NCBI RefSeq assembly: GCF_900108225.1
Contig: NZ_FNUZ01000004.1
Span: 186,001 to 250,000 of the forward strand
Source: Thalassococcus halodurans
GTDB taxonomy: Bacteria > Pseudomonadota > Alphaproteobacteria > Rhodobacterales > Rhodobacteraceae
Length of the DNA: 64,000 nt
Reading direction: 5' to 3'
Position 1 is the stretch's first letter; each line of letters starts with the position of its first letter. The position numbers and the translations under genes are program-made. A model generated the notes under the pieces. It saw only the letters and a program-made list of their open reading frames with translations. It was not told where the DNA came from and searched no databases. Below, piece by piece: positions 20,279 to 34,284 of this stretch.

Positions 20279-21307
20279 CTAGATGTTTTCCGGTGTGAAA
20301 ATGTCAAAGCCCAACGCCACCCGTTGCGCCCCTGCGCCGGGGCCAAGGTCTTTGGACTTGATCATGGTGGCGATGGCCTCGCGGGCGAAGGCCTCCATCG
20401 GGTGGGCGATCAGCATGGTCAGCGTCCCGTCGGCCAATGCGCTGCGGGTGACATCGAACAACTCATAGCCGACTGCCACGAAATCATCGCGACGCGGATT
20501 GTCACGCAGGGCACCGATGGCCCCCGTGATCCCGCCACCCGAGATGAAAAGGCCGCACAGGTCAGGGTGATCGCGCAGCATCTGCTCAACGATATCGCGG
20601 GCTGCTGCGGCGGACTCGTAGGTCGCCTGAGGTTCCAGCAGGGTGAAGTTGGGATTGTATTCCCGCATATAGGACCGGAAGCCGCTTTCGTTCATTTCTT
20701 GATTGCGGAAGCGGTGGTTGCCCACAAGGATGCCGATCTTGCCGGGGTTGCGGACCATTTTGTCAAAGGCCCATGCGGCGGTGCGGCCGATCTTCCAGTT
20801 ATCAAGCCCGACAAAGCTGACATTCCCGCGCGCTGACAGGGGGCCGATCAGGGCCGCGACAGGCACGCCGTTGTCCAGAACCGTGTCGATGGCATTGGCG
20901 ACGATAGGATGCTGTGCCGCGACAACGGCAATCGATTCGCATCTTTCACCCAATGAGATGATCTGTTGGGCCACATTTTCAGGAGACAGGTTGCTGACGA
21001 ACTCAAGCGTCAGTTTGATCCTGCAATTTGGATGCATCTCAGCTGCGCTGCGAATCGCCTTCCCGAGTTCGTCGTAAAACGTCCTGCCGCTTTGCTGGAG
21101 CAGAACGCCCAGATGATAGGTTTTTCGTTGTGCCATAACGGATTGCGTCATGGCGCCAAGGCCATAGAAGCCAATTTCTTCAGCCGTTCTTAGCACCGAT
21201 TCCCGCGTCGATTCGCGCACATTTTCGGCGCCGTTGATGATTCTGTTCACTGTCGAAACCGAAACCCCAGCGGCTTCGGCGAGATCGGGAATGGTGGGGC
21301 GTTTCAT
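20279..21307 (-). CDS. LacI-family transcriptional repressor of the sugar cluster
   Basis: The 342-residue product opens with the LacI headpiece TIPDLAEAAGVSVSTVNRII and the hinge region, then a ribose-binding-protein-like sensor (HLGVLLQQSGRTFYDELGKA, IAVVAAQHP, FISGGGITGAIGAL). It is convergent with the quinate operon and divergent from the hydroxylase/ABC operon. A perfect LacI-type palindrome with central CG (TTAGCGCTAA, 21439-21448) lies just before that operon. It very likely represses the operon until the sugar or cyclitol substrate is bound. Confidence 0.92.
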   Translation of the reverse strand: MKRPTIPDLAEAAGVSVSTVNRIINGAENVRESTRESVLRTAEEIGFYGLGAMTQSVMAQRKTYHLGVLLQQSGRTFYDELGKAIRSAAEMHPNCRIKLTLEFVSNLSPENVAQQIISLGERCESIAVVAAQHPIVANAIDTVLDNGVPVAALIGPLSARGNVSFVGLDNWKIGRTAAWAFDKMVRNPGKIGILVGNHRFRNQEMNESGFRSYMREYNPNFTLLEPQATYESAAAARDIVEQMLRDHPDLCGLFISGGGITGAIGALRDNPRRDDFVAVGYELFDVTRSALADGTLTMLIAHPMEAFAREAIATMIKSKDLGPGAGAQRVALGFDIFTPENI

Positions 21308-21482: not shown

Positions 21483-22511
21483 ATGGACGATCTGCTTTAC
21501 GGCACACGCGACAAACGCGGCAATTGGGCCCCGAATGAACAAGCCAAGCCAGCACCTATCTGGCAGCGCCCGTTCAGTCTTCGGAAGGTTCTTGCCTGGG
21601 TGCCCGAGTACTTGTGGCCGTGGAATGCGTTCCATCTGGCGACAGCGATCATTTGGGTCACTCTGCTGATCCCGAGTTGGGAAAGCCTCGCGACGCTTTC
21701 CATCACGAATTACCTTTGGCTGTATGGCCTGAACGCGGCTGGACTGTTTGTCTTTCTGGGCAGCTTCGAGCTGATCTACTACGTCAAGCGCAAGCAGGGG
21801 AACCGGTTCAAGTACAACGGCAAGTTCCCGTCGGAAAACCCGTCAGACGTCTTCTGGTTCAAAAGCCAGAACATCGACAACTTCCTGCGGTCGTTTTTTA
21901 TCACCGTGCCGCTGTGGACGGTCGTCGAGATCGTGATGCTATGGGCCTATGCCAACAGCTGGGCGGTCTGGTTGCCGTGGACGACGCATTGGGTCTGGCT
22001 GACGGTGGTGATCCTTTTGGCACCGGCTGTGCATGAGATCTATTTCTTCTGTCTCCACCGCCTGATCCATACGCCTTTCTTGTACAAACACATCCATTCC
22101 GTTCACCACAACTCGATCAACCCGAGCCCATGGTCGTCGCTGTCGATGCACCCCGGTGAAGGCTTTCCTTACATGGCCGAGGCGTGGCTGCACCTGCTGA
22201 TCCCGTCCAACCCGATTTGCGCGTATTTCACGCTGCATGCGGCAGGCTTCGGGGCGATCAACGGGCACCTTGGCTTCGAGAAACTCGAACTGACCGAAGA
22301 CACCACTTTGGATAGCCACGCCTACGTTCACTACCTGCACCACAAGTACTTTGAGGTGAACTACGGCGGCGACGGTGTTGTGCCCCTCGATATGCTGTTC
22401 GGCACTTGGCACGACGGCTCGAAAGAGGCGGACGAGAAGATGAAGGCGCGTTTCCGCAAGAAAAAGGAAAAGCAGAATTCAAGAAAACCAACGGCAACGC
22501 CTGCGGAATAG
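21483..22511 (+). CDS. Membrane di-iron fatty acid hydroxylase/sterol desaturase-family oxygenase
   Basis: The 342-residue protein starts after GGGAGG. Hydrophobic segments lie at about residues 50-65, 80-100, 138-158 and 168-190. The histidine clusters of the family are complete: HRLIH (H192, H196), HSVHH (H205, H208, H209) and HYLHH (H283, H286, H287). The tail is Lys-rich and cytoplasmic. Such enzymes use O2 and electrons from a ferredoxin or cytochrome b5 to hydroxylate C-H bonds. It leads a sugar/cyclitol uptake and catabolism operon, with a Rieske ferredoxin five genes on, so hydroxylation of an O-methyl group (oxidative demethylation) is plausible. It is not a housekeeping lipid enzyme by context. 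Confidence 0.85.
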   Translation: MDDLLYGTRDKRGNWAPNEQAKPAPIWQRPFSLRKVLAWVPEYLWPWNAFHLATAIIWVTLLIPSWESLATLSITNYLWLYGLNAAGLFVFLGSFELIYYVKRKQGNRFKYNGKFPSENPSDVFWFKSQNIDNFLRSFFITVPLWTVVEIVMLWAYANSWAVWLPWTTHWVWLTVVILLAPAVHEIYFFCLHRLIHTPFLYKHIHSVHHNSINPSPWSSLSMHPGEGFPYMAEAWLHLLIPSNPICAYFTLHAAGFGAINGHLGFEKLELTEDTTLDSHAYVHYLHHKYFEVNYGGDGVVPLDMLFGTWHDGSKEADEKMKARFRKKKEKQNSRKPTATPAE

Positions 22512-22612: not shown

Positions 22613-23566
22613 ATGAAACTGAAGGCAATCATCACGGCGGCGGCGACCGCCACGCTGATGGCAACGGGCGCATATGCGCAGGACATCGCGGTTATCGCGG
22701 GCTCTGTCGAAGATGCGTTCATGGACAAGATCAAAAAAGGTGTCGATGACGCGACACACATGGTCGAAGCCAACGGCGGTACAGTTCAGTACCTGCGTAC
22801 ACAGAACTACGAAAACTTCGGTCCCGATCTGGTGACACTGATCAACCAAGCGGTTGCGCAGGGCGTAGACGGCATCGCGATCCCCGTCTGGGTTCCGGAC
22901 GCACAGATCCCCGCACTGCAGGCCGCAGGCGAGCAGGGCATCAAGATCATGCAGTACAACTCGGGTCTGCCGGTCAAAGCTGACATCAACGCGATCAACT
23001 ACTTCGGTTCTGACGAATACGAAGCGGGCTTCGGCGGTGGTAAGTACCTTGCTGAAAAAGGCGCGAAGCACATCCTTTGCCACATCCAGGTTCCGGGCGC
23101 GATCAACCTTGAAGAGCGTTGCCGCGGTGTAACCGACGGTGCTGCAGAAGCAGGCGCGAAAGTGACTGTTCTGAACACACCTGCGAACCTTGACGGTGAC
23201 GTCACAGGTACAGCGGAGGCGCTGAAAGCGGAATTCATCGGCGACAGCTCGATCGACGCGATGGTATCCTGCGCGGACTTCGGTGCGGCCGCTGGTGCAA
23301 ACGCGGTTGAGCAGACCGGTCTGGACATCATGGTTTCCGCCTTTGACTTCTCGCCCGCATCGCTTGAGCGTATCTCGGCCGGTACCCAGACAATGGCTAT
23401 CGACCAGCAGCCTTATCTCCAGGGCTTCCTTGCAACGTCCATGCTGTTCGCCAACCTGAAGTTTGGCACAGAGATTTCGACAGATCCGGTTCTGACCGGT
23501 CCGGCGATCATCGACGCATCGAACGTTGACGCTGTCAAAGCAGGCGCAGCACTCGGCGCACGCTAA
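22613..23566 (+). CDS. Sugar ABC transporter periplasmic binding protein (ribose type)
   Basis: The 317-residue protein has a signal peptide ending GAYAQD near residue 24. It follows GGGAGG with good spacing. The chain belongs to the ribose/galactose/inositol-binding group: AVIAGSVEDAFMDKIKKG, INQAVAQGVDGIAIPVW and VSAFDFSPASLERISAGT. The mature protein would capture the substrate for the permease and ATPase encoded next. Its ligand is unknown; family precedents with the same partners include myo-inositol, rhizopine and fructose. The gap before it (22512-22612) shows no operator. Confidence 0.92.
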   Translation: MKLKAIITAAATATLMATGAYAQDIAVIAGSVEDAFMDKIKKGVDDATHMVEANGGTVQYLRTQNYENFGPDLVTLINQAVAQGVDGIAIPVWVPDAQIPALQAAGEQGIKIMQYNSGLPVKADINAINYFGSDEYEAGFGGGKYLAEKGAKHILCHIQVPGAINLEERCRGVTDGAAEAGAKVTVLNTPANLDGDVTGTAEALKAEFIGDSSIDAMVSCADFGAAAGANAVEQTGLDIMVSAFDFSPASLERISAGTQTMAIDQQPYLQGFLATSMLFANLKFGTEISTDPVLTGPAIIDASNVDAVKAGAALGAR

Positions 23567-23665
23567 TCAGCACATTCGCCCGGCTGGCCCATGCTGGCCG
23601 GGCAACTCATTGCGCCCGTAACATCGGACATGCGCAAAAGGCAAAAGTTCACCTTGGGGAATAAA

Positions 23666-24745
23666 ATGGCGGACACACAATCAACAAAGAACGAGTCTTC
23701 AGAAGGAGGGTTTTCACTCCTCAGCTTGTTCAGACGCCCAGAAGCGGGCGCGGCAGCCGGTTTCGTACTGATCTTTCTTTTCTTCAGCTTCTTCGGTTGG
23801 GATAAGAACTTTCTGACACCGCTCGGCGCATCGACCTGGCTCAATTTCGCCTCCAAGGTGGGTATTATCGCTATTCCGATCGGATTTCTGATGATCGCGG
23901 GCGAGCTGGATATTTCGGTCGGGGCGGTTATCCCTGCCGGTGGTATCGTGCTGGCCATGGCGGTCGAGATCTTCGGTTTCAATTTCTGGGTCGCAGTCCT
24001 GTTCAGCTTTGCTGTCGCTGCCGCCATCGGCTGGATAAACGGGATGCTGGTGACCCGCACGCAGGTGCCGTCGCTGATCGTAACGCTTGCCACACTCTTC
24101 GTTGTGGCCGGTCTGAACGCTTATGTCTCCAAGCAAATCGCGGGCACCACACAGCATAGCCTGCCTGATGTGGGTGCCATCTCTGAATTCCTGATGGGCG
24201 ATTATCATTCGCTGGTGATCGGTGAGGGCGAAAGCGCGTTCACAATCTTCCGCAGCCTGCAAAGCTCGTTCTTTATCTGGATCGTTGTGGCGGTCATGTG
24301 CTTCTACATCCTGCACGTTTCCCCTTGGGGCAACTGGATCTTCGCTATGGGCGGTGATCAGGAAAGCGCTCGCAACGCAGGTATCCCGACCAACCGTCTG
24401 AAGATTGCGCTGTTTATGCTGTCTGCCATGGCCGCCGCACTGGTCGGCATGACCGAAGCGGTTCTGGCGAACACGGCAAGTACGACAACCCAGTTCGGCA
24501 TGATCTTTAACACCATCATCTGTGTGGTTGTTGGCGGCGTGCTTCTGACCGGTGGTTTCGGGACAGTGACAGGGGTTGTGTTCGGCACGCTGACATTCGG
24601 CATCGTGTTCCAGGGCATCAACTTCACCACCTTCGACAAAGACCTGAACATGCTGTTCATCGGCGCGCTTCTTCTGATCGCGGTTCTGATGAATGACACC
24701 TTCCGTAATCTCGCGACCAGTGCGTCGACGTCCAAGAAGAAGTGA
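23666..24745 (+). CDS. Sugar ABC transporter permease (RbsC/FrcC type)
   Basis: A longer frame begins at 23591, but GGGGA at 23656-23660 points to the ATG at 23666, giving 359 residues. About ten hydrophobic segments are visible. IAGELDISVGAVIPAGG near residue 78 and the GGDQESARNAGIPTNRLK loop near 230 are the family's signature substrate-path and ATPase-contact regions. One gene encodes the permease, which probably works as a homodimer in the inner membrane. Confidence 0.92.
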   Translation: MADTQSTKNESSEGGFSLLSLFRRPEAGAAAGFVLIFLFFSFFGWDKNFLTPLGASTWLNFASKVGIIAIPIGFLMIAGELDISVGAVIPAGGIVLAMAVEIFGFNFWVAVLFSFAVAAAIGWINGMLVTRTQVPSLIVTLATLFVVAGLNAYVSKQIAGTTQHSLPDVGAISEFLMGDYHSLVIGEGESAFTIFRSLQSSFFIWIVVAVMCFYILHVSPWGNWIFAMGGDQESARNAGIPTNRLKIALFMLSAMAAALVGMTEAVLANTASTTTQFGMIFNTIICVVVGGVLLTGGFGTVTGVVFGTLTFGIVFQGINFTTFDKDLNMLFIGALLLIAVLMNDTFRNLATSASTSKKK

Positions 24746-24755
24746 GGTCTTAACG

Positions 24756-25550
24756 ATGTCTGATAAAGCTCCTGTATTGGAAATGCGCAACGTCGACAAA
24801 AGCTTTGGCCCGATCGACGTTCTCCACGAAATCTCGCTCAAGGTGCACGAAGGCGAAGTTCTTTGTCTGCTGGGCGACAACGGTGCCGGCAAGTCCACGC
24901 TGATCAAAACGCTGTCGGGTGTGCATCAGCCGACCCGTGGCCAGATGATGATGGACGGCCAAGAGGTCCGCTTCCCGCGTCCGCGCGATGCGCAGGAAAT
25001 GGGGATCGCGACTGTGCACCAGTTCGGCGGGACCTATCCGCTGATGTCGGTGGGCCGGAACTTTTTTGCCGGTGCGGAACCGACCAAAGGCTTTGGCCCG
25101 TTCAAGGTGTTTGATCGCCAGAAGGCCAACCAGATCGCGGTCGAGGAAGTCCAGAAGATGGGCATCACCCGCATCACCGATGGCGACCGTTTGGTTGGTG
25201 GCCTGTCGGGTGGTGAGCGTCAGTCGCTGGCGATTGCCCGCGCGGTGTATTTCGGTGCCCGCGTTCTGATTTTGGACGAACCGACAGCGGCCCTTGGCGT
25301 GAAACAGGCAGCCCACGTTCTGCGGATCGTGAACGAAGCCAAACGTCGTGGTCTGGCGGTGATCTTCATCACCCACCAGGTCATGCATGCGATGGCCGTT
25401 GGCGACCACTTCGCGGTTCTGATCCGCGGCGCGATCGCGGCGGACTTCCGCAAAGGCGAAAAGAGCCGAGAAGAAATCGCCGACCTGATGGCGGGCGGTG
25501 AATCCATGGCAGATCTGGAAGCCAATATCGACGGAATGGCCGACGCGTAA
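24756..25550 (+). CDS. Sugar ABC transporter ATPase, single-domain (FrcA type)
   Basis: The ATG at 24756, with GAGG at 24744-24747, gives 264 residues. Walker A is GDNGAGKST (residues 40-48), the signature is LSGGERQ, Walker B runs into DEPTAALG, and the switch His is in FITHQ. There is only one nucleotide-binding domain, unlike the tandem RbsA/MglA ATPases usually paired with ribose-type permeases, so two copies must pair. This half-size form is known from the fructose importer FrcBCA and related rhizobial and Roseobacter systems. Confidence 0.92.
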   Translation: MSDKAPVLEMRNVDKSFGPIDVLHEISLKVHEGEVLCLLGDNGAGKSTLIKTLSGVHQPTRGQMMMDGQEVRFPRPRDAQEMGIATVHQFGGTYPLMSVGRNFFAGAEPTKGFGPFKVFDRQKANQIAVEEVQKMGITRITDGDRLVGGLSGGERQSLAIARAVYFGARVLILDEPTAALGVKQAAHVLRIVNEAKRRGLAVIFITHQVMHAMAVGDHFAVLIRGAIAADFRKGEKSREEIADLMAGGESMADLEANIDGMADA

Positions 25551-25664: not shown

Positions 25665-26669
25665 ATGACAACACGACTTGCTATCATTGGGGCTGGCTTG
25701 ATGGGCGAAGATCACGCCCGAATTTTCGCTCAGGAAGTGCCCGGTGCGACACTTCAGGTGATCTGTGATCCCGACAACAACCGCGCGGCTGCGGTTGCAG
25801 ACAAATTTTCGGCGGCGGATGTGGCGACAGATGCCGCAGCGACCATCGCACGGCCAGATGTTGACGCTGTTGTCATCGCAAGCCCCGACTTCACCCACGC
25901 GGACCTGACACGACAGTGCATCGACGCGGGCAAACGTGTGCTGTGCGAAAAGCCGTTGTCGCAGAAATCGTCCGAATGCCTTGAGGTCATGCAGGCCGAA
26001 GTTCTTCTGAACGCGCGCCACGTGATGCTGGGCTTTATGCGTCGCTATGATCAATCCTACATAGACATGCGCGCGGCATTGACCGGCGGCAAACTGGGTC
26101 GTGCGTTGATGATGCACAACTTCCACCGCAACGTGGAAACGCCTGCGTCGGACTTTACCGGTGCAATGGCAATTACCAACTCGGCCCCGCATGAATTCGA
26201 CGTTGTGCGACATGTCATGGGTGTTGAATACACCTCGATCACAGCGCATCAGCCGCGCCGGTCGGACAGCCGCGTGGCACCCGTTGTGATGGTGCTGGAA
26301 ACCTCTGATGACCAGCTTGTCATGATCGAGATCAACAACAACGCGGCCTATGGCTATGACGTGCGTGCCGAACTGGTGGGCGAAGCCGGTTCCATCGCGA
26401 TCAACAACGTGGCCTACACGCGCACCGACAGCCGTTTCACCTCCAGCACGCCTTATGATGCGGACTGGCGCAGCCGTTACGCGGACGCCTATCGCCGTCA
26501 GAACCGTGAATTCATCCGCTTTGTCGAAACCGGCGAATTCCCAGGCATCGCGTCGGATGCGTGGGATGGTTACTGCGCCGCAGTTGTCGCCGAAGCGGGC
26601 GTGCGCGCGCTGGAAAGCGGCCAGACAAGCCCTGTTTCCCTGATCGAAAAGCCGGAGTTGTACGCATGA
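25665..26669 (+). CDS. Gfo/Idh/MocA-family dehydrogenase, first copy
   Basis: The 334-residue NAD(P)-dependent oxidoreductase has the Rossmann start LAIIGAGLMGEDHARIF and the family motif CEKPLSQ (residues about 94-100), whose Lys is catalytic. HEFDVVRHVMG near residue 176 supplies the active-site Asp and His. Members oxidise a secondary hydroxyl of cyclitols or sugars; inositol 2-dehydrogenase and MocA are models. It overlaps the next gene by four bases (ATGA). The 114-base gap before it holds a weak AATGGG/CCCATT hairpin (25582-25600) that might tune expression. Confidence 0.92.
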   Translation: MTTRLAIIGAGLMGEDHARIFAQEVPGATLQVICDPDNNRAAAVADKFSAADVATDAAATIARPDVDAVVIASPDFTHADLTRQCIDAGKRVLCEKPLSQKSSECLEVMQAEVLLNARHVMLGFMRRYDQSYIDMRAALTGGKLGRALMMHNFHRNVETPASDFTGAMAITNSAPHEFDVVRHVMGVEYTSITAHQPRRSDSRVAPVVMVLETSDDQLVMIEINNNAAYGYDVRAELVGEAGSIAINNVAYTRTDSRFTSSTPYDADWRSRYADAYRRQNREFIRFVETGEFPGIASDAWDGYCAAVVAEAGVRALESGQTSPVSLIEKPELYA

Positions 26670-27625
26670 AGCTTGGTTTCGTTTCCGACAGCCTTGGTGG
26701 CATGAGCCTTGATCACCTGCTTGATAGCGCGGTGCGCATGGGTGTTTCGGGTATTGAGGTGAATACCTGTGGCTGGTCCACAGCGCCGCATTTCGATCTG
26801 CAAACGATGTTGAAAGACGCCAGCGCGCGGAAAGAGTTTCTGAACGCTTTCGGCGAACGCGCGCTTGAGGTGATCAGCCTGAACGCCAACGGCAACCCGT
26901 TGCATCCCACCGACCCCAAGCAAGGCAGCGACCTAAAGGATACAATCCGCGTTGCCGGTGAGATGGGTATCAAGACCGTGTGCACCATGTCCGGCCTGCC
27001 TGCGGGCAATGCCAATGACACGATGCCCAACTGGGTTGTGTCCAGCTGGCCGCCGGAAACTCAGGCGATCCTGAACTACCAGTGGAACGATGTTCTGATC
27101 CCGTTCTGGCAAGAGATCGTTGAACTGGCAAAAGAATGCGGTGTCGAGCGCATCGCGTTGGAATTGCACGGTAACCAGTGTGTTTATAACGTACCCTCCC
27201 TCCTGAAACTGCGCGACGCGGTCGGGCCCGTGGTTGGGGCCAACCTCGACCCGTCGCACCTTTTCTGGATGGGCGCCGATCCTTTGGCTGCGGCCGAGGC
27301 GTTGGGCGATGCGATCTATCACGTGCATGCCAAAGACACGATGCTGAACGCCCCTGTCCAGGCCACGACCGGTCTGCTGGAAAACGGATCCCTGATGGAT
27401 ATTCCGGCGCGCAGCTGGTCCTACATCACGCTTGGCTTCGGCCACGGCGAAGAATGGTGGCGCCAGTTCTGCTACCGCCTGAAAATGGCCGGCTACGACG
27501 GCTGGCTGTCTATCGAACACGAAGACGTTCTGTTGAACTCTTTGGAAGGGTTGGAGAAATCCGTGACCCTTCTGCAGGGCGTGATGCCAAGCGCGCCCGC
27601 TGACTTCAAACCCCAAGACATCTGA
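26666..27625 (+). CDS. TIM-barrel sugar isomerase/epimerase-family protein, first copy
   Basis: The gene starts at the ATG overlapping the previous stop and encodes 319 residues. Metal-site strands are visible at RIALELHGNQ near residue 170, GANLDPSHLFWMG near 193, YHVHAKDTM near 219 and GWLSIEHEDVLL near 280. The family includes inosose dehydratase (IolE/MocC), xylose isomerase and 3-keto-sugar-acting enzymes. Following a Gfo/Idh dehydrogenase, it probably isomerises or dehydrates the keto product. Confidence 0.9.
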   Translation: MKLGFVSDSLGGMSLDHLLDSAVRMGVSGIEVNTCGWSTAPHFDLQTMLKDASARKEFLNAFGERALEVISLNANGNPLHPTDPKQGSDLKDTIRVAGEMGIKTVCTMSGLPAGNANDTMPNWVVSSWPPETQAILNYQWNDVLIPFWQEIVELAKECGVERIALELHGNQCVYNVPSLLKLRDAVGPVVGANLDPSHLFWMGADPLAAAEALGDAIYHVHAKDTMLNAPVQATTGLLENGSLMDIPARSWSYITLGFGHGEEWWRQFCYRLKMAGYDGWLSIEHEDVLLNSLEGLEKSVTLLQGVMPSAPADFKPQDI

Positions 27626-27635
27626 GGAAAGACCA

Positions 27636-27947
27636 ATGCCAACTTGGATTGATGCCTGCGCTGCTGAAGATATCGATGAAGAAGATGTCATCCGTTTCGA
27701 TCACGGGGACCGCACCTTTATCATCGTTCGCGATCACGAAGATAACTACTATTGCACAGATGGTCTGTGCACCCACGAAGACGTGCACCTGTGCGACGGT
27801 CTGGTTGTCGAAGCGACAATCGAATGCCCGAAACACGCGTCGATTTTCGACATGACCAACGGCGAAGTGGAAACGCCGCCTGCATGTGAAAACCTGCACA
27901 CCTACCAAACCAAGGTCGAAGACGGCCGCGTGTTCGTGGAAATCTGA
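27636..27947 (+). CDS. MocE-like Rieske [2Fe-2S] ferredoxin
   Basis: The 103-residue soluble protein carries a perfect Rieske motif: C45-T-H47, then C64-P-K-H67. Its small size and bacterial ferredoxin-type sequence (GLCTHEDVHLCDG, IECPKHASIFDMTNGE) resemble MocE, the ferredoxin of rhizopine catabolism, and BphF/TodB-type electron donors. It most likely supplies electrons to the membrane di-iron hydroxylase that opens this operon. No ferredoxin reductase gene is in the operon, so a housekeeping reductase must serve. It lies between two TIM-barrel genes with only a few bases on either side. Confidence 0.92.
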   Translation: MPTWIDACAAEDIDEEDVIRFDHGDRTFIIVRDHEDNYYCTDGLCTHEDVHLCDGLVVEATIECPKHASIFDMTNGEVETPPACENLHTYQTKVEDGRVFVEI

Positions 27948-27948
27948 T

Positions 27949-28722
27949 ATGGCGTTCCAACTGGCCGCTTGTGCGGAAATGCTCTGGCAGGACAAGCCTA
28001 TTGCATGGCGCGCGTCGCGATTGAAAGAGCTGGGGTTTGGTGTCGGGCTTTGGAACTGGCCGGATTGGGACTTGGACGCGCTTGAGAAAACAGGTGCGAC
28101 CTTCACCATCATGAACGGATATCTGGAAGGCCGTCTTGCAGATGCCGAGGGGGCGGACATGTTGATCAAGTCCGCCCGCGAAGCAGCGCAGGTCGGCAAG
28201 CGTTTGGGCGTCCACCGCCTGAACCTGCATGGCACCGGTCTGGGGGATATGGGCATTCCGATCCCGCAGATGGCGCATGTGGCGCCTGGCATGTGGCTGC
28301 GCGCCCGCGACACGCTGCACCGGATTTGCGATATGGCCGAGGAAGAAGGCGTGATGTTCACGCTGGAAAACCTGAACCTGCGCGAACACCCCGGCTGTCC
28401 GTTCAATTCCACCGCTGACGTTCTGTCACTGGTTGCCGCTGTGGATCGCCCGCAGTTGCGCATCAACCTTGATCTTTATCACACGCAAATCGGCGAGGGC
28501 GATGTGATCCGCCACGCCGAAGCCTGCCTGCCGTGGATCGGCGAAGTGCAGGTTGCAGACAACCCCGGTCGCTGTGAACCCGGCACCGGCGAAATGAACT
28601 GGCCCATGATCGCCAAGGCATTGCACGCGATGGGCTATGACGGCCCCGTCGGCATGGAAGCCTTTGCCAAAGACGATCCCGAGGACGCGCTGGACGCGTT
28701 CCGTGCGGCCTTTACCCTCTAA
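27949..28722 (+). CDS. TIM-barrel sugar isomerase-family protein, second copy (hydroxypyruvate isomerase-like)
   Basis: The ATG at 27949 lies one base after the ferredoxin stop and gives 257 residues. Features of the Hyi/xylose-isomerase-like group include LNLHGTGLGD near residue 90, FTLENLNLREHPG near 137, RINLDLYHTQIGEGD near 173 and EVQVADNPGRCEPGTGE near 200. It is closer to hydroxypyruvate isomerase or 2-oxo-tetronate isomerase than to IolE. Its partner in the pathway is unknown; the PanB-like gene follows after 14 bases. Confidence 0.88.
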   Translation: MAFQLAACAEMLWQDKPIAWRASRLKELGFGVGLWNWPDWDLDALEKTGATFTIMNGYLEGRLADAEGADMLIKSAREAAQVGKRLGVHRLNLHGTGLGDMGIPIPQMAHVAPGMWLRARDTLHRICDMAEEEGVMFTLENLNLREHPGCPFNSTADVLSLVAAVDRPQLRINLDLYHTQIGEGDVIRHAEACLPWIGEVQVADNPGRCEPGTGEMNWPMIAKALHAMGYDGPVGMEAFAKDDPEDALDAFRAAFTL

Positions 28723-28736
28723 AGAAGGAACCCCAG

Positions 28737-29561
28737 ATGTACCACAATCGTCCCCATGTCGAAGACCTCCGTGCGATGAAAAAGCGTGGCGAAAAGATTT
28801 CGATGCTGTTCGTCACCACACCGGAAGAAGCGGCTGCGGCCAATGCGGCTGGCATTCACATGCTGTCGATCGAAGGCAAGTTCTTTGACGCAGAGATGCG
28901 CGAAGCGGCGGGCGATTGTTTCGTTCAGGTCGGTCTGCCTTATGGCGGTTGGGGCCGGTTTGAAGGCCGTCCCATCGCAACGGGCGAAGACTATTTGCGC
29001 GCGGCGTTCCATTACGCGGGCATCGGCGGTGACGCCTACTATTGCTCGGCGTCCTACGACATTCAGAAGCTGCTCTGTGACAACCACTTGCCAGTTGTTG
29101 GCCACATCGGTCTGATCCCGTCCTACATCACATGGACTGGCTGGCGCGCAGTTGGCAAAACCGCGGACGAAGCGCTGGCGTTGTGGAAGCACACCCAGAT
29201 GCTGGAAAAGATCGGTGTCTTCGGTGCCGAGCTTGAGGTCGTGCCGGATCGCGTTGCGAAATACCTGACAGAAAACTCGTCGCTGCTGATGCTGGGTATG
29301 GGCGCAGGCAAACATGCCGACGCGCAGTACCTGTTTACCGAAGACGTCTGCGGCTACGGCAAAAACCACAAGCCGCGTCACGGCAAGGTCTATCGCAACT
29401 TCGCGCCAGAACTTGAGCGTCTGCAAAACGAACGCATCGCGGCGTTCAAAGACTTCAAGGCGGACGTGGACAACGGCGGCTACCCCGAAGCCTGCCATTC
29501 GGTGGCGATCAAGGACGATCAGTTCGATGCGTTCCTCGAGCAGGCAAAAAACGATGCTTAA
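28737..29561 (+). CDS. PanB-like protein lacking canonical metal ligands
   Basis: The 274-residue product is related to ketopantoate hydroxymethyltransferase: VVGHIGLIPS (120-129), GWRAVGKTADEALALWKHTQMLEKIGVF, AELEVVPDRVAKYL, GMGAG (187-191) and HKPRHGKVY. The His of VGHIG (H123) and the catalytic Glu of LEVVP (E167) are kept. By eye, the Mg2+-binding Asp residues correspond to G47 and G66, and the substrate-binding Lys/Glu pair to Y102 and S104. So it probably does not make pantothenate precursor. In this operon it may handle a C1 unit or split an alpha-keto acid; the reaction is unknown. Confidence 0.8.
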   Translation: MYHNRPHVEDLRAMKKRGEKISMLFVTTPEEAAAANAAGIHMLSIEGKFFDAEMREAAGDCFVQVGLPYGGWGRFEGRPIATGEDYLRAAFHYAGIGGDAYYCSASYDIQKLLCDNHLPVVGHIGLIPSYITWTGWRAVGKTADEALALWKHTQMLEKIGVFGAELEVVPDRVAKYLTENSSLLMLGMGAGKHADAQYLFTEDVCGYGKNHKPRHGKVYRNFAPELERLQNERIAAFKDFKADVDNGGYPEACHSVAIKDDQFDAFLEQAKNDA

Positions 29562-30582
29562 GGTTGGCGTTGTAGGATACGGCACCGGTGGTCAGCATTT
29601 CCATACGCCGTTTATCGCAGCGGCCGAGGGCTGTTCGTTGGCAGGCATCGTTGCACGGGCCGAGGCGACTGTCGCCAAGGCGCGTGCCGACTGGCCGGAT
29701 GTTCCGATTTTCCCAAGCCTGACGGCCATGATCGAAGCGGGCGTTTGCGATGCGGTGACCATCACCACACCGCCCCAGACGCGCCGTGATCTTGTTCTGG
29801 AAGCGATCAATGCTGGCCTGCACGTGGTGGCGGACAAACCCTTTGCCCCGAATTACGAGGGCGCAATGGAGTTGGACGCAGCGGCCAAGGCCAAGGGCGT
29901 GACACTGGGTGTGTACCAGAACCGCCGCTACGATTCCGATTTGCAGACCTTGGCCAAGATCATCAGGGATGGTCGTCTGGGTCAGGTCTGGCGCATTCAC
30001 AGCCGGATGGATTTCGACGATCCCGCAACGCTTGAGGCCGGCCCGACAGGCGGTCTGTTGCGCGATCTGGGCAGCCATCTGGTGGACCAGATGATCTGGT
30101 TGAACGGTCCGGTCACGTCGGTTTCGGTGCACATGGATCACGTTGATCTGCCCGAGGGTCGTACGGACGCCAGCTTTGTCATCACACTGAACCACGAAAG
30201 CGGTCCGGTGTCTGTGGTGTCGGCATCAAAACTGAACCGCCTTAGCACCCGTGAACTGCGGGCCTATGGCGACAAAGGCGCCTACGTCAGCTACGGCACC
30301 GACGTGCAGGCGCAACAGATTTTCGCGGGCCAGCAACCCACCGATGATCCGGATGCCTGGGGCTATGAGCCTGAAAGCAACTGGGGCACGCTTTATACCG
30401 ACGAAGGTCCGGCAAAAGTACCAGCCGAGCAGGGGCGCTATCACGACTACTACGCCGCCTTCGCCAAAGCGGTCGCCGACGGCACCGAGCCGCCCGTGAC
30501 GGCCGAAACAGGTGCGCGGACGCTTGCCGTTCTGGATGCCGCGCGGCAAAGCGCGGAAGAAGGCCGGTCCATCCAGCTTTGA
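29554..30582 (+). CDS. Gfo/Idh/MocA-family dehydrogenase, second copy
   Basis: The gene starts at the ATG at 29554, inside the end of the PanB-like gene (8-base overlap), and encodes 342 residues. The Rossmann motif is VGVVGYGTGGQHFHTPF; VADKPFAPN near residue 90 carries the catalytic Lys. RDLGSHLVDQMIWLNG near 170 gives the family Asp/His region. The GGQHFHTPF start and long C-terminal part (YEPESNWGTLYTDEG) recall YdgJ/scyllo-inositol dehydrogenase IolW. A role in oxidising or reducing a cyclitol or 3-keto sugar fits. Confidence 0.9.
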   Translation: MLKVGVVGYGTGGQHFHTPFIAAAEGCSLAGIVARAEATVAKARADWPDVPIFPSLTAMIEAGVCDAVTITTPPQTRRDLVLEAINAGLHVVADKPFAPNYEGAMELDAAAKAKGVTLGVYQNRRYDSDLQTLAKIIRDGRLGQVWRIHSRMDFDDPATLEAGPTGGLLRDLGSHLVDQMIWLNGPVTSVSVHMDHVDLPEGRTDASFVITLNHESGPVSVVSASKLNRLSTRELRAYGDKGAYVSYGTDVQAQQIFAGQQPTDDPDAWGYEPESNWGTLYTDEGPAKVPAEQGRYHDYYAAFAKAVADGTEPPVTAETGARTLAVLDAARQSAEEGRSIQL

Positions 30583-30624: not shown

Positions 30625-31626
30625 ATGATTAAAGTCGGACTTCTAGGCGCAGGTCGCATCGCTGGTGTGCACGCAACCGCCATTTCTTCGCACCCGGGCA
30701 GCGAACTGGCTGCGGTATCGGATTACTTCCCCGAAGCGGCGCAGAAACTGGCGTCGCAATACGGCACGGTTGCCCGCACGACCGAGGAAATTATTGCTGA
30801 CGACAGCATCGACGCGGTTCTGATCGCCACCTCGACCGACACACACTCGGATCTGATCGAGGCCGCAACTGCGGCTGGTAAGGCCGTGTTGTGCGAAAAG
30901 CCCGTGGACCTGAGCCTTGAGCGCGCGCAGGCCTGTCAGGTGGCGGTCGCCAAAACCGACCGTCCCGTCATGATCGGCTTCAACCGCCGCTTTGATCCGA
31001 ACTTCGGTGCATTGAAAAATGCGCTCGTCGCTGGCGAAATCGGCAAGGCCGAACTTCTGTCGATCACATCCTTCGATCCGGCCCCGCCGCCGCTTGAGTA
31101 TGTGAAGGTTTCGGGCGGTCTGTTCCGCGACATGATGATCCATGACTTCGACATGGCGAATTTCATTATGGGCGATCTGCCTGTGTCCGTCACAGCCGTT
31201 GGCACATCCATCGTCGATCCGGCTATTGGTGATGCAGGCGATGTGGACACAGCTGCGGTTACACTGACCTATGCAGATGGGCGCATTGCGGTGATCAAAA
31301 ACTCGCGCCGTGCGGTCTATGGCTATGATCAGCGTGTTGAACTGCTGGGATCCGAGGGCCTTCTGCAAGCGCAGAACATGCTGGAAAATACTGTGGTCAA
31401 AAGCACGACTGCGGGCGTGACCGGTGCTAAGCCGACCTACTTCTTCCTTGAGCGCTATATGCCTGCCTATGCGGCGGAATGGGCGGCGTTTGTCGAGGCG
31501 TTGACCAACGGTGGCGCGCTGCCCGTGACACTGGCAGACGGCGTAGCCGCGCTGGCCATGGCCGAAGCGGCAACACGGTCGGCCAAAACCGGTGCGCCAG
31601 TGATGATGGCTAATATTCTGTCCTAA
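30625..31626 (+). CDS. Gfo/Idh/MocA-family dehydrogenase, third copy (inositol 2-dehydrogenase-like)
   Basis: The 333-residue protein has VGLLGAGRIAGVHATAI, then VLCEKPVDLS near residue 89 (catalytic Lys), FNRRFDPNF near 119 and MMIHDFDMANFIMG near 169 (Asp/His). This is very like myo-inositol 2-dehydrogenase IolG. It closes the operon; three paralogous dehydrogenases in a single transcript imply either several oxidation steps or a substrate mixture. A GC-rich hairpin follows at 31633-31662. Confidence 0.92.
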   Translation: MIKVGLLGAGRIAGVHATAISSHPGSELAAVSDYFPEAAQKLASQYGTVARTTEEIIADDSIDAVLIATSTDTHSDLIEAATAAGKAVLCEKPVDLSLERAQACQVAVAKTDRPVMIGFNRRFDPNFGALKNALVAGEIGKAELLSITSFDPAPPPLEYVKVSGGLFRDMMIHDFDMANFIMGDLPVSVTAVGTSIVDPAIGDAGDVDTAAVTLTYADGRIAVIKNSRRAVYGYDQRVELLGSEGLLQAQNMLENTVVKSTTAGVTGAKPTYFFLERYMPAYAAEWAAFVEALTNGGALPVTLADGVAALAMAEAATRSAKTGAPVMMANILS

Positions 31627-31662: not shown

Positions 31663-31733
31663 ACACTTTGGTCGGCTTGCTCATCGCCGCCTTTCGGGAC
31701 AAGGTTCACCTGACTAATCCGGTGACTGTGTCC

Positions 31734-32480
31734 ATGCTTCGTTTTCTTCTGTCTTTCTGGCTGTTTGCCGCGCCTGCTTGGGCTGCGGACCTGACCGTGT
31801 TTGTTGCCGCCAGCATGGGCGATGTGCTGGGCGAGGCGGCGGATGTTTGGGAAGACAAAACAGGCCAGCATGTCACCATCGCCCCAGCAGGAAGTTCGGT
31901 TCTGGCCCGCCAGATCGCGGCTGGCGCGCCTGCCGACATCTTTGTGTCTGCAAGCCCAGAATGGATGGATTGGCTGGATCAGAAGGGGATGATCGCGCCT
32001 GATACGCGGCGCGATCTGGCGGCGAATGCATTGGTTTTGATCGGGCATGGTTCGGGCGAAGCGGGTGATATGCCCACGGACATTGCGGCACTTCTGCCCG
32101 ACGATACACGGCTGGCCATGGCGCTGGTCGATGCGGTGCCTGCGGGTATCTACGGCAAGGCGGCGCTGGCGCATCTGGGGCAATGGGATGCCTTGGCTCC
32201 ACGTGTGGCGCAGACGGATAACGTGCGGTCTGCGCTTGCCTTGGTTGCGCTGGGTGAGGCGCCGTTGGGCATCGTCTATGCCACCGATGCAGCCTCGGAT
32301 GACCGTGTCCATGTGGTTGCGCAGTTCCCCGAAGATAGCCATCCGCCCATCACCTATCCTGCCGCTATCACAGCCGATGCGTTGAACGCTGATGCGGCGC
32401 GGGCGTTTCTGGAATGGCTGGCAAGTGCCGAAGGTCAGGCGCTTTTTGCCCGATACGGCTTTGTTCCTGTGACCGAGTAA
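31734..32480 (+). CDS. modA: Molybdate ABC transporter substrate-binding protein
   Basis: Starting at the ATG at 31734, the 248-residue protein has a clean signal peptide (LLSFWLFAAPAWAADL). The mature chain starts TVFVAASMGDVL, with the ModA contact motifs APAGSSVLARQIAAGAPADIF and later DAVPAGIYGKAAL and APLGIVYATDA. It binds molybdate (or tungstate) in the periplasm for ModBC. Several longer starts are open, but only this one places the signal peptide at the N-terminus. Confidence 0.95.
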   Translation: MLRFLLSFWLFAAPAWAADLTVFVAASMGDVLGEAADVWEDKTGQHVTIAPAGSSVLARQIAAGAPADIFVSASPEWMDWLDQKGMIAPDTRRDLAANALVLIGHGSGEAGDMPTDIAALLPDDTRLAMALVDAVPAGIYGKAALAHLGQWDALAPRVAQTDNVRSALALVALGEAPLGIVYATDAASDDRVHVVAQFPEDSHPPITYPAAITADALNADAARAFLEWLASAEGQALFARYGFVPVTE

Positions 32481-32494
32481 GCTAAGCAATCATC

Positions 32495-33190
32495 ATGGAT
32501 TACCTAGGACAAGAGGCATGGCAGGCGGTGGCGCTGTCGCTCAAGGTGGCCTTCTGGGCCACGGTCCTTAGCTTGCCTTTGGGGATTGTAACGGCCTACG
32601 CGCTGGCGCGGGGGCGGTTTGTGGGGCGTCAGATATTGAACGGTCTTGTGCTGGTGCCACTGATCATGCCGCCGGTGGTGACAGGCTATCTGTTGTTGCT
32701 TACATTCGGGCGGCAGGGGCCGGTTGGCGGGCTGCTTTATGACTGGTTCGGGGTGACATTGGCGTTTCGCTGGACAGGCGCGGCGCTGGCGGCGGCGATT
32801 ATGGCGTTCCCGCTGATGGTGCGTGCGATCCGGTTGGCGATCGAGGCTGTGGACCCGAAACTGGAAGACGCGGCTGCCACATTAGGCGCATCACGGCTGC
32901 GCGTGTTTTGCACAGTCACCCTGCCGCTGATCGCACCGGGGATCATCGCAGGGGCAGTGATGGCCTTTGCCAAAGCGGTCGGTGAATTCGGCGCAACGAT
33001 TACTTTCGTGTCGAACATCCCCGGCCAGACCCAGACGATCCCGTCAGCCATCTATGCCTTCCTGCAAGTGCCCGGCGGCGAAAACGCGGCGCTGACGCTG
33101 GTGGTGATTTCCATCACGCTGGCTTTGGGCGCAGTTGCCCTGTCGGAATGGCTGGCGCGTCGTGTGGCACATAGGATTTCCGGCAAATGA
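32495..33190 (+). CDS. modB: Molybdate ABC transporter permease
   Basis: The 231-residue inner-membrane protein has five hydrophobic segments and the EAA-type loop DAAATLGASRLRVFCTVTLPLIAPGI near residue 127, which contacts ModC. It is 14 bases from modA and overlaps modC by four bases (ATGA). Confidence 0.95.
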   Translation: MDYLGQEAWQAVALSLKVAFWATVLSLPLGIVTAYALARGRFVGRQILNGLVLVPLIMPPVVTGYLLLLTFGRQGPVGGLLYDWFGVTLAFRWTGAALAAAIMAFPLMVRAIRLAIEAVDPKLEDAAATLGASRLRVFCTVTLPLIAPGIIAGAVMAFAKAVGEFGATITFVSNIPGQTQTIPSAIYAFLQVPGGENAALTLVVISITLALGAVALSEWLARRVAHRISGK

Positions 33191-34284
33191 CGCTGTCGGT
33201 GAACATAAAACGCCGCCTTGGCGATTTCGCCCTGGACGTCAGTTTCGACGCGCCGGACGGGGTGACCGTTCTGTTCGGTCGCTCTGGGTCGGGCAAAACA
33301 TCGGTGGTGAACGTGGTTGCCGGTTTGCTGCGACCCGATGAGGGGCGGATCGCTTTGCATGACCGCGTGCTGTTTGATGCAGGCGCGGGCGTCGATGTGC
33401 CGGTTCACAAACGCCGTCTTGGCTATGTCTTCCAAGAAGCACGGCTGTTCCCGCATATGTCGGTGCGCGACAACCTGCTTTATGGGCGCAAGGCTTCGGG
33501 CCTGAAGGGGCAGGGTGATCTTCGCCGCGTGGCCCAGATGCTGGGGATCGAGGGCCTGTTGGACCGTCGCCCCGCGCGACTGTCGGGCGGCGAAGCGCAG
33601 CGCGTGGCGATTGGCCGTGCCTTGTTGTCCGAGCCCGAAATCCTGTTGATGGACGAACCGCTGGCCGCGCTTGATGCGCCGCGCAAGGCGGAAATCTTGC
33701 CCTATCTGGAACGCCTGCGCGCCGAAAGCGGCTGTCCGATCATCTACGTCAGCCACAATCTGGCCGAGGTCGCACGGCTTGCGACCCATCTGGTGGTTCT
33801 GGAAGACGGCAAGGTTCTGAAGGACGGTGCTGTCAGTGATCTGCTGTCCGATCCGTCGATGGTCCGCGTCTTTGGTGTGCGCGATGCGGGTTCGGTCCTG
33901 ACCGCGCAGGTCGTGGATCATGCCGATGATGGTGTGACGGAACTGAAAGTATCTGGCGGAACGCTTTGGCTGCCCACAGTGCCAGCCGAGGTTGGTAGCC
34001 ACTTGCGCGTGCGCATTCTGGCACAAGAAGTTTTGATCGCGGCGGACCGGCCTGTTGGATTGTCGGCGCTGAACGTCCTGCCGGTGACTGTGCTGTCGAT
34101 GAAACGTGGCGACGGGCCGGGTGTGATCGTGCAGCTAAAAGCAGGCGATGACACGCTTCTGGCGCGTGTCACACGGCGCAGTGCGGATGCCTTGGGCCTG
34201 CATGAAGGGGGCACATGTTTCGCCGTTCTCAAATCCGTGGCGGTGGCTCCGGCTGACGTGGGTGGGGGCTTGCAGTCAGGGTGA
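33187..34284 (+). CDS. modC: Molybdate ABC transporter ATPase
   Basis: The 365-residue protein has Walker A FGRSGSGKTS near residue 30, the signature LSGGEAQR, and Walker B running into LMDEPLAALD. The C-terminal third (about residues 290-355, GLSALNVLPVTVLSM onward) is a TOBE/Mop domain that binds molybdate and can gate transport. It completes modABC. No ModE gene or molybdopterin-cofactor riboswitch was noticed upstream, so the regulation is not visible here. Confidence 0.95.
   Translation: MTLSVNIKRRLGDFALDVSFDAPDGVTVLFGRSGSGKTSVVNVVAGLLRPDEGRIALHDRVLFDAGAGVDVPVHKRRLGYVFQEARLFPHMSVRDNLLYGRKASGLKGQGDLRRVAQMLGIEGLLDRRPARLSGGEAQRVAIGRALLSEPEILLMDEPLAALDAPRKAEILPYLERLRAESGCPIIYVSHNLAEVARLATHLVVLEDGKVLKDGAVSDLLSDPSMVRVFGVRDAGSVLTAQVVDHADDGVTELKVSGGTLWLPTVPAEVGSHLRVRILAQEVLIAADRPVGLSALNVLPVTVLSMKRGDGPGVIVQLKAGDDTLLARVTRRSADALGLHEGGTCFAVLKSVAVAPADVGGGLQSG

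Follow-up and report, generated by a model that had tools for sequence, protein, structure and literature searches.

The mocDEF module of rhizopine catabolism, reportedly described by Bahar et al. in 1998, demethylates 3-O-methyl-scyllo-inosamine. FolD and PurU together convert methylene-THF to formate and THF. For E. coli ketopantoate hydroxymethyltransferase (PanB), D45 and D84 are assumed here to be the Mg2+ ligands, K112 and E114 the keto-acid ligands, and E181 and H136 the residues acting in catalysis. PanB hydroxymethylates a keto acid with methylene-THF as the donor, and a metal ion promotes the formation of the enol, according to the available part of PMC7770189. The use of mocDEF in rhizopine catabolism is stated in the available text on the moc genes (PMC10107442), in which a panB-like gene is not named. 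According to the available passages of PMC7073904, growth by the spontaneous condensation of formaldehyde with THF would proceed with a doubling time of more than three weeks; an activating enzyme that uses THF is named there as a mere possibility. A panB-like gene of Rhizobium etli CFN42, RHE_PE00443, is located on plasmid p42e. According to the accessible excerpts of PMC3082293, its product keeps 5 of the 12 invariable active-site residues, its metal-binding domain is not detectable, and it does not complement a panB mutant. In these excerpts, the protein is reported only as not being PanB, and neither partner genes nor a function are named for it.

The window is the whole stretch of DNA that was analysed, 64,000 nucleotides of the Thalassococcus halodurans genome. 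It contains an operon with a PanB-like gene, the product of which is termed PanBL, a name given here to the separate PanB-like clade to which it belongs. The features of this operon are listed in Table 1. The PanBL open reading frame encodes 274 amino acids and is a real gene, with an ATG located 14 bp past the stop codon of the preceding gene, an AGAAGGA-like ribosome site ahead of this ATG, and up to 94% identity to the protein of another genus, Vannielia. A MocF homologue is not detected in the window by tblastn (E <= 1e-6), and MocF, FolD and PurU are not found in the operon. The oxygenase at the place of mocD belongs to the FA_hydroxylase family and not to the FA_desaturase family (PF00487). 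The presence of IolG in the operon, of iolD in the T. halodurans genome and of a cyclitol-like ABC transporter suggests that the substrate of this operon is an O-methyl-inositol, and the contexts of other PanBL loci suggest other methylated sugars. The operon is directly followed on the same strand by genes resembling those of a molybdate-type ABC transporter (for a binding protein, a permease and an ATPase; 31668-34284), at the position that is occupied by folD/purU or iol genes in some relatives. The original prediction placed the gene in a sugar operon and not beside panC, and the window genes bear this out.

Table 1. Features of the PanBL operon and its divergent regulator gene in the window
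Feature	Position	Strand	Profile evidence and remarks
LacI-family regulator, divergent from operon	20279..21307	-	PF00356 and PF13407
Membrane oxygenase of the fatty-acid-hydroxylase family, at the place of mocD	21483..22511	+	PF04116, 67.5 bits; relatives adjoin PanBL in many loci
Sugar/cyclitol ABC substrate-binding protein (SBP)	22613..23566	+	Top NCBIfam is the rhizopine SBP NF052284, 126 versus cut-off 420
ABC permease	23591..24745	+	PF02653
ABC ATPase	24753..25550	+	PF00005
Gfo/Idh dehydrogenase, closest to inositol/chiro-inositol dehydrogenase	25665..26669	+	Below cut-off
Xylose-isomerase-like TIM barrel, weak IolE likeness	26663..27625	+	PF01261
MocE-family Rieske [2Fe-2S] ferredoxin	27636..27947	+	TIGR02377, 146.1 bits, cut-off 136.15
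Xylose-isomerase-like TIM barrel, hydroxypyruvate-isomerase-like, below cut-off	27955..28722	+	PF01261; TIGR03234, 110 versus 353
PanBL, PanB fold; PanB metal and keto-acid ligands absent, H123 and E167 kept, E165 and H215 gained	28737..29561	+	
Gfo/Idh dehydrogenase	29554..30582	+	Profile matches
IolG, inositol 2-dehydrogenase	30625..31626	+	TIGR04380, 427 bits, cut-off 355

PanBL is predicted to be a PanB-fold protein. Its AlphaFold model, built with 30 sequences, has a pLDDT of 92.5 and a pTM of 0.84. The top 28 rows of a Foldseek search with this model are PanB chains, and VIA-align gives a Z of 25.8 for PanB (rmsd 2.8, 214 residues) and of 15.5 for the next fold, 2-methylisocitrate lyase. 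The match to Pfam PF02548 is confined to residues 109-251 (112 bits, cut-off 28.7), and the score to the PanB equivalog TIGR00222 (77.8 bits) does not reach its cut-off of 207.55. The residues of PanBL were mapped to those of E. coli PanB by an alignment of 105 PanBL and 37 other PanB sequences, and the mapping was cross-checked by a profile-profile alignment (hhalign E 4.9e-52). D45, D84, K112, E114, H136 and E181 of the E. coli protein, all of which are present in 37/37 of the other PanB rows, correspond to G47, G66, Y102, S104, H123 and E167 of PanBL respectively. Thus, the structural comparison and both alignments confirm a PanB fold with changed ligands, as predicted, and agree with the replacement of the Lys/Glu pair by Tyr102 and Ser104. 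The possibility that the metal ligands are merely displaced through misalignment is rejected, because the two alignments agree.

Conservation of these positions differs across the 105 PanBL sequences. H123 and E167, the retention of which had been predicted, are present in all of them. Position 84 of the E. coli numbering is Gly in 97 and Ala in five, with Asp in one; position 112 is Tyr in 101; and position 114 is Ser in 49 and Ala in 42. Position 45 is variable (Gly in 41, Pro in 19 and Asp in 12), and Asp is found there in the second PanBL copy of the T. halodurans genome. The claim that both metal-binding Asp residues are Gly therefore holds for the window protein (G47, G66), but Asp45 is not simply lost from PanBL as a whole. 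A 19-residue loop, E. coli residues 48-66, is deleted in 104-105 of the 105 sequences. V179, K228 and F229 of E. coli PanB are replaced by E165, R214 and H215 in 105/105, and these three are also invariant in a set of 47 diverse members, which has 21 invariant columns; the charged ones are E165, E167, H123, D203, R214 and H215. A distant member (L194) has Lys at position 228. Two acidic residues, E46 and the newly gained E165, lie close by in the sequence, and PanBL may have a new metal site. Judged from its residues, PanBL resembles a functional protein with a remodelled site rather than a relic.

In a tree of 47 rows, 28 PanBL sequences form one clade (support 100/100, stem of 1.33 changes per site), 15 ordinary PanB sequences lie outside, and four alphaproteobacterial proteins branch between the two. 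In these four and three more intermediates, D45 and K112 are kept, and Ser or Cys at position 84, Gln at 114 and Glu at 179 are already present. The intermediate clade occurs in Alphaproteobacteria (L195-L198, L234-L240), with TRAP transporter genes near one member (L238). The intermediate form is the only PF02548 protein found in two genomes (G380 and G474); other carriers also have canonical PanB. With the intermediates set aside, 16 of the 289 genomes sampled from the class contain PanBL at E <= 1e-40, and six more contain only the intermediate form. A plasmid collection contains 274 records with a match at E <= 1e-20; in 267 of these, at least 80% of the query is covered at one place. Three PanBL copies contain in-frame stops (G161:C4:1721-2497, G099:C9:31999-32784 and G014:C20:31303-31803), one of them in the other genome of Thalassococcus. 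A genome of 1.6 Mb with a GC content of 30% (G453; L228, L229, L233) has four PanBL copies, two of them in tandem.

The steady partner of PanBL is a mocDE(F)-type oxygenase module. Neighbours were counted within 5 kb on each side of 102 distinct PanBL genes (tblastn > 90 bits), with truncated loci left out; low-GC loci were read by tblastn, and one locus (L275) was picked for its expected context. MocE is present near 81 of these genes, a MocD-type oxygenase near 71, both near 61, at least one of them near 91, and a MocF-type reductase near 27. With duplicates included and no such cut, 106 of 136 PanBL loci have MocE and/or MocD. MocE or MocD is found near 40/41 of the genes with at least 60% identity to the window protein, 36/39 of those with 40-60% and 15/22 of those below 40%. 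Seven of the 11 genes with neither partner belong to these 22. The presence of these 11 genes suggests that part of the family may do something else, and the deepest PanBL subclade, which more often lies apart from MocDE, may have a different function. Eight loci lacking MocDE (L138, L159, L170, L188, L224, L226, L227/L190 and L232/L194) have no common alternative partner; their neighbours are DctM, HlyD, MDMPI_N, RbsD/FucU, PfkB, HI0933-like, FtsW-like, chromate transporter, AAA and rhodanese proteins, and two neighbours have no family.

The association is also seen against a matched control. In 295 genomes, MocE lies within 6 kb of 66 of the 108 listed PanBL rows, a count that includes 15 MocE matches just under the cut-off, and within 6 kb of only 1 of the 150 canonical panB genes listed for these genomes. 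The PanBL rows extend to E of about 2e-22, and weaker rows were counted as ordinary PanB. The control takes one panB per genome, 150 being listed for the 169 genomes with canonical PanB and the places in the other 19 genomes being unlisted. Its single exception (G199, locus L204) has panB and panC beside MocE-MocD and no PanBL. The matched control replaces one of 29 other PanB loci, mostly of other phyla or of the intermediate type, in which MocE, MocD, MocF, PurU and FolD are found near none (0/29) and panC near six. Both PanBL and MocE are present in 48 of the 295 genomes, MocE only in 19, PanBL only in 19 and neither in 209 (Fisher P 2.5e-24, ignoring relatedness). Of 89 MocE genes over the cut-off, 57 lie within 6 kb of PanBL. 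The other 32 have no listed PanBL there, some of them in otherwise alike operons, indicating that PanBL is not needed for MocDE as such. Among the MocE/MocD loci that lack PanBL (L199-L218), some have the same LacI-TIM-ABC-iolG neighbours, one (L207) is beside a sulfatase gene, and L204 is the locus beside panB and panC. Such loci could reveal which oxygenase substrates need PanBL.

The oxygenase beside PanBL belongs to either the FA_desaturase or the FA_hydroxylase family, and the link persists across both. The rest of the operon varies, with inositol genes, amylase and LacI genes, levoglucosan-dehydrogenase-like and SDR genes, or a ribokinase gene. The gene order is MocD-MocF-MocE-PanBL-MocD in a locus of the 30% GC genome (G453), and homologues of MocD, MocE and MocF are encoded directly upstream of PanBL, behind a divergent LacI gene, on pSymB of Sinorhizobium meliloti. 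In strain 1021, LacI-mocD-mocE-mocF corresponds to SM_b20817-20820, as given in the available part of PMC11387232. On plasmids of Bradyrhizobium and Mesorhizobium (L272, L273), the order is ribokinase-PanBL-sterol desaturase-Rieske-(TIM)-FAD oxidoreductase; in these two loci, the module is recombined with another regulator (AraC) and a kinase. The original prediction asked whether the protein belongs to a separate clade tied to Gfo/Idh operons. PanBL does form a separate clade, and its nearest members lie in Gfo/Idh operons, but the Gfo/Idh genes are local sugar context that depends on the locus.

Genes of one-carbon metabolism are located near some PanBL genes. The order is PanBL-folD-purU-iolG in Neotabrizicola shimadae, and PanBL is followed by a Gfo/Idh gene, folD and purU in Rhodobacter amnigenus. 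The second PanBL operon of T. halodurans (L113, G000:C12:54701-74700) has the order mocD-mocE-PanBL-LacI-TIM-SBP-permease-ATPase-iolG-mocF-purU, contains a PF00487 oxygenase and MocF, and has, about 8 kb from PanBL, the only PurU of the genome over the family cut-off. Among the 102 PanBL matches, FolD is found within 5 kb of two and PurU within 5 kb of nine. Six of these nine are full-length, five on the same strand and one convergent (L126); the remaining three are two fragments (L041, L063) and a weak partial match (L145). With the 108 listed PanBL rows, three PurU-PanBL pairs within 10 kb are observed versus 0.13 expected (P 3e-4), the T. halodurans pair and the convergent pair included. 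In contrast, purU and folD are not found at the 20 loci examined of the 32 with MocE but not PanBL. The link between PanBL and purU/folD is real, and it comes from few operons. Because FolD and PurU turn methylene-THF into formate and THF, such operons hint at a production of methylene-THF on a catabolic scale.

It is proposed, with about an even chance of being right, that PanBL serves mocDE(F)-type oxidative demethylation as its one-carbon partner and loads formaldehyde or a hydroxymethyl group onto THF. The operon would serve the breakdown of a methylated sugar or cyclitol, probably O-methyl-inositol in the window because IolG is encoded in the operon. The membrane di-iron oxygenase would hydroxylate the O-methyl group and would be fed by the ferredoxin MocE together with a ferredoxin reductase from another locus, such as the one encoded in the second PanBL operon. 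The product, R-O-CH2OH, would then release formaldehyde. PanBL would have inherited its THF-binding site from PanB. With E167, H123 and the newly acquired E165, it would convert formaldehyde, or the hydroxymethyl group directly, to 5,10-methylene-THF, from which FolD and PurU would produce formate and free THF. The Mg2+ ligands, Lys112, Glu114 and loop 48-66 would represent the keto-acid half of the PanB site, which would be dispensed with because no keto acid takes part. Since this half is lost, the Glu/His pair is kept and formaldehyde would come from the oxygenase, the natural reading is that PanBL carries out the other half of the PanB reaction. The spontaneous condensation of formaldehyde with THF is too slow for good growth, so that an enzyme would pay. 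Demethylation by MocD, THF as the cosubstrate, the direction of the reaction and the substrate are all points that we infer. That PanBL is a THF-specific formaldehyde-activating enzyme, or one that accepts the hydroxymethyl group directly from the product of the oxygenase, and guards against a leak of formaldehyde in the oxidative demethylation of sugars and cyclitols across Alphaproteobacteria is suggested tentatively, with slightly less than an even chance. Two reactions were offered in the original prediction. The MocD/MocE(/MocF) neighbours and the few purU/folD operons favour the use of C1 units from demethylation, and the loss of precisely the metal and keto-acid site speaks against the cleavage of a C-C bond in a keto acid.

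Alternatively, PanBL may make or break a C-C bond: a hydroxymethyl group would pass between a sugar-derived carbonyl compound and either formaldehyde or methylene-THF, through acid/base enolization that dispenses with the metal of PanB or relies on a newly formed metal site. E165, E167, H123 and H215 could form a new site. The parent family consists of class II aldolase-like enzymes, keto-sugar enzymes are encoded in the operons, and, according to the accessible portion of PMC7610986, E. coli PanB and its variants act on formaldehyde and aldosugars in reactions that do not need THF. This alternative is nevertheless rather unlikely, in view of the loss of the Mg2+ ligands, the keto-acid ligands and loop 48-66. 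In addition, the sugar enzymes differ between loci while the oxygenase module stays constant, and a single fixed sugar acceptor is therefore unlikely.

It is similarly doubtful that PanBL acts on the sugar or the oxygenase product with no one-carbon chemistry, for example by hydrolysing or isomerizing the hydroxylated product, or by conferring specificity on MocD as one of its subunits. The tight link to MocD/MocE, and the existence of MocDE loci that lack PanBL, as for a substrate-specific accessory, are consistent with such a role, but the acid/base pair of a one-carbon transferase (E167 and H123) is kept throughout PanBL, and the purU/folD operons point to one-carbon chemistry.

That PanBL is a second PanB is very improbable. 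The T. halodurans genome encodes, adjoining panC, an ordinary PanB (362 bits to PF02548), and panC is found within 5 kb of none of the 102 distinct PanBL genes. Canonical PanB (PF02548, E <= 1e-80) is present in 42/67 of the PanBL genomes of the family set versus 127/228 of those lacking PanBL (P 0.33). Because canonical PanB is no rarer in the genomes that carry PanBL, PanBL is not a substitute for it, nor does PanBL depend on the presence of PanB. An earlier statement that PanBL genomes also carry canonical PanB, based on 8/8 genomes at first, was dropped in view of the count for the whole set. The panB-like gene of p42e, which encodes 271 residues with 48% identity to the window protein, has Tyr, Ala, His, Glu, Glu, Arg and His at E. 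coli positions 112, 114, 136, 179, 181, 228 and 229 respectively, and lies in the order LacI-desaturase-MocE-FAD reductase-PanBL. We take it to be RHE_PE00443, judging from plasmid, annotation and length (270 residues in the available text of PMC3082293). The complementation of a panB mutant by a PanBL protein has thus already been examined, with a negative result in the excerpts of that paper. The changed reaction that was expected is supported. A second working PanB in T. halodurans is rejected in view of the separate panBC and this negative result.

It is highly improbable that PanBL functions as a ketopantoate hydroxymethyltransferase whose metal ligands have shifted, even in those genomes that lack another PanB. 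The PF02548 score over the cut-off is consistent with such an activity, and PanBL is annotated as a pantothenate enzyme in 16 of the 60 plasmid rows listed, the other 44 being unannotated there. Moreover, 25/67 of the PanBL genomes (e.g. G093 and G188) have no PF02548 protein at E <= 1e-80, so that, judged from gene content alone, PanBL may act as PanB there. However, the score to the PanB equivalog is below its cut-off, PanBL is not the only PanB in T. halodurans, canonical PanB is absent no more often from PanBL genomes than from the others (101/228), and a PanB role is refuted for the R. etli homologue by the complementation result. There is very little probability that PanBL is a degenerate relic or binds a ligand without catalysis, because the changes at four PanB active-site positions and the in-frame stops in three copies in relatives are outweighed by the 21 invariant columns, charged residues included, over 47 diverse members.

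The fold family, the finding that a homologue is not PanB, and mocDEF are already known. A PanB-like protein in a demethylation module, mocDEF chemistry and pinitol demethylation were not found in a literature search of titles and the openings of abstracts, and PanBL as a coherent clade with a rebuilt site and a tie to MocDE(F) and purU/folD was not found in titles, openings of abstracts and passages. The public name "pantothenate enzyme" is very probably wrong for PanBL and hides a distinct family. If PanBL does transfer formaldehyde to THF, the question left open in the available passages of PMC7073904 would be answered. PanBL would then be the fourth part of the mocDEF module, would explain how formaldehyde from methylated sugars is handled in these bacteria, and would be a part for synthetic methylotrophy. 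The PanBL genes of Rhizobium and Sinorhizobium make this idea testable now.

PanBL resembles PanB (EC 2.1.2.11; 1M3U, 3VAV, 1O68 and 1OY0) in its TIM-barrel fold (Z 24-26, 23-27% identity over 200-222 residues), in the GHxGLxP and G-A-G motifs and in the counterparts of Glu181 and His136. It differs from PanB in that D45, D84, K112 and E114 are replaced, residues 48-66 are missing, E165 is new, the clade is separate and panC is not nearby. R. etli RHE_PE00443 belongs to the same family as the window PanBL and likewise has MocE-type neighbours. The window operon resembles the mocDEF module of S. meliloti and R. leguminosarum in having a MocE over the family cut-off and a MocD-type di-iron oxygenase, but this oxygenase is of the other family, mocF is missing, and the SBP scores far below the rhizopine cut-off. 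The function proposed for PanBL, the condensation of formaldehyde with a pterin carrier, is the same as that of Fae, the formaldehyde-activating enzyme for tetrahydromethanopterin. The fold of Fae is unrelated to that of PanBL, and PanBL, unlike Fae, would use THF.
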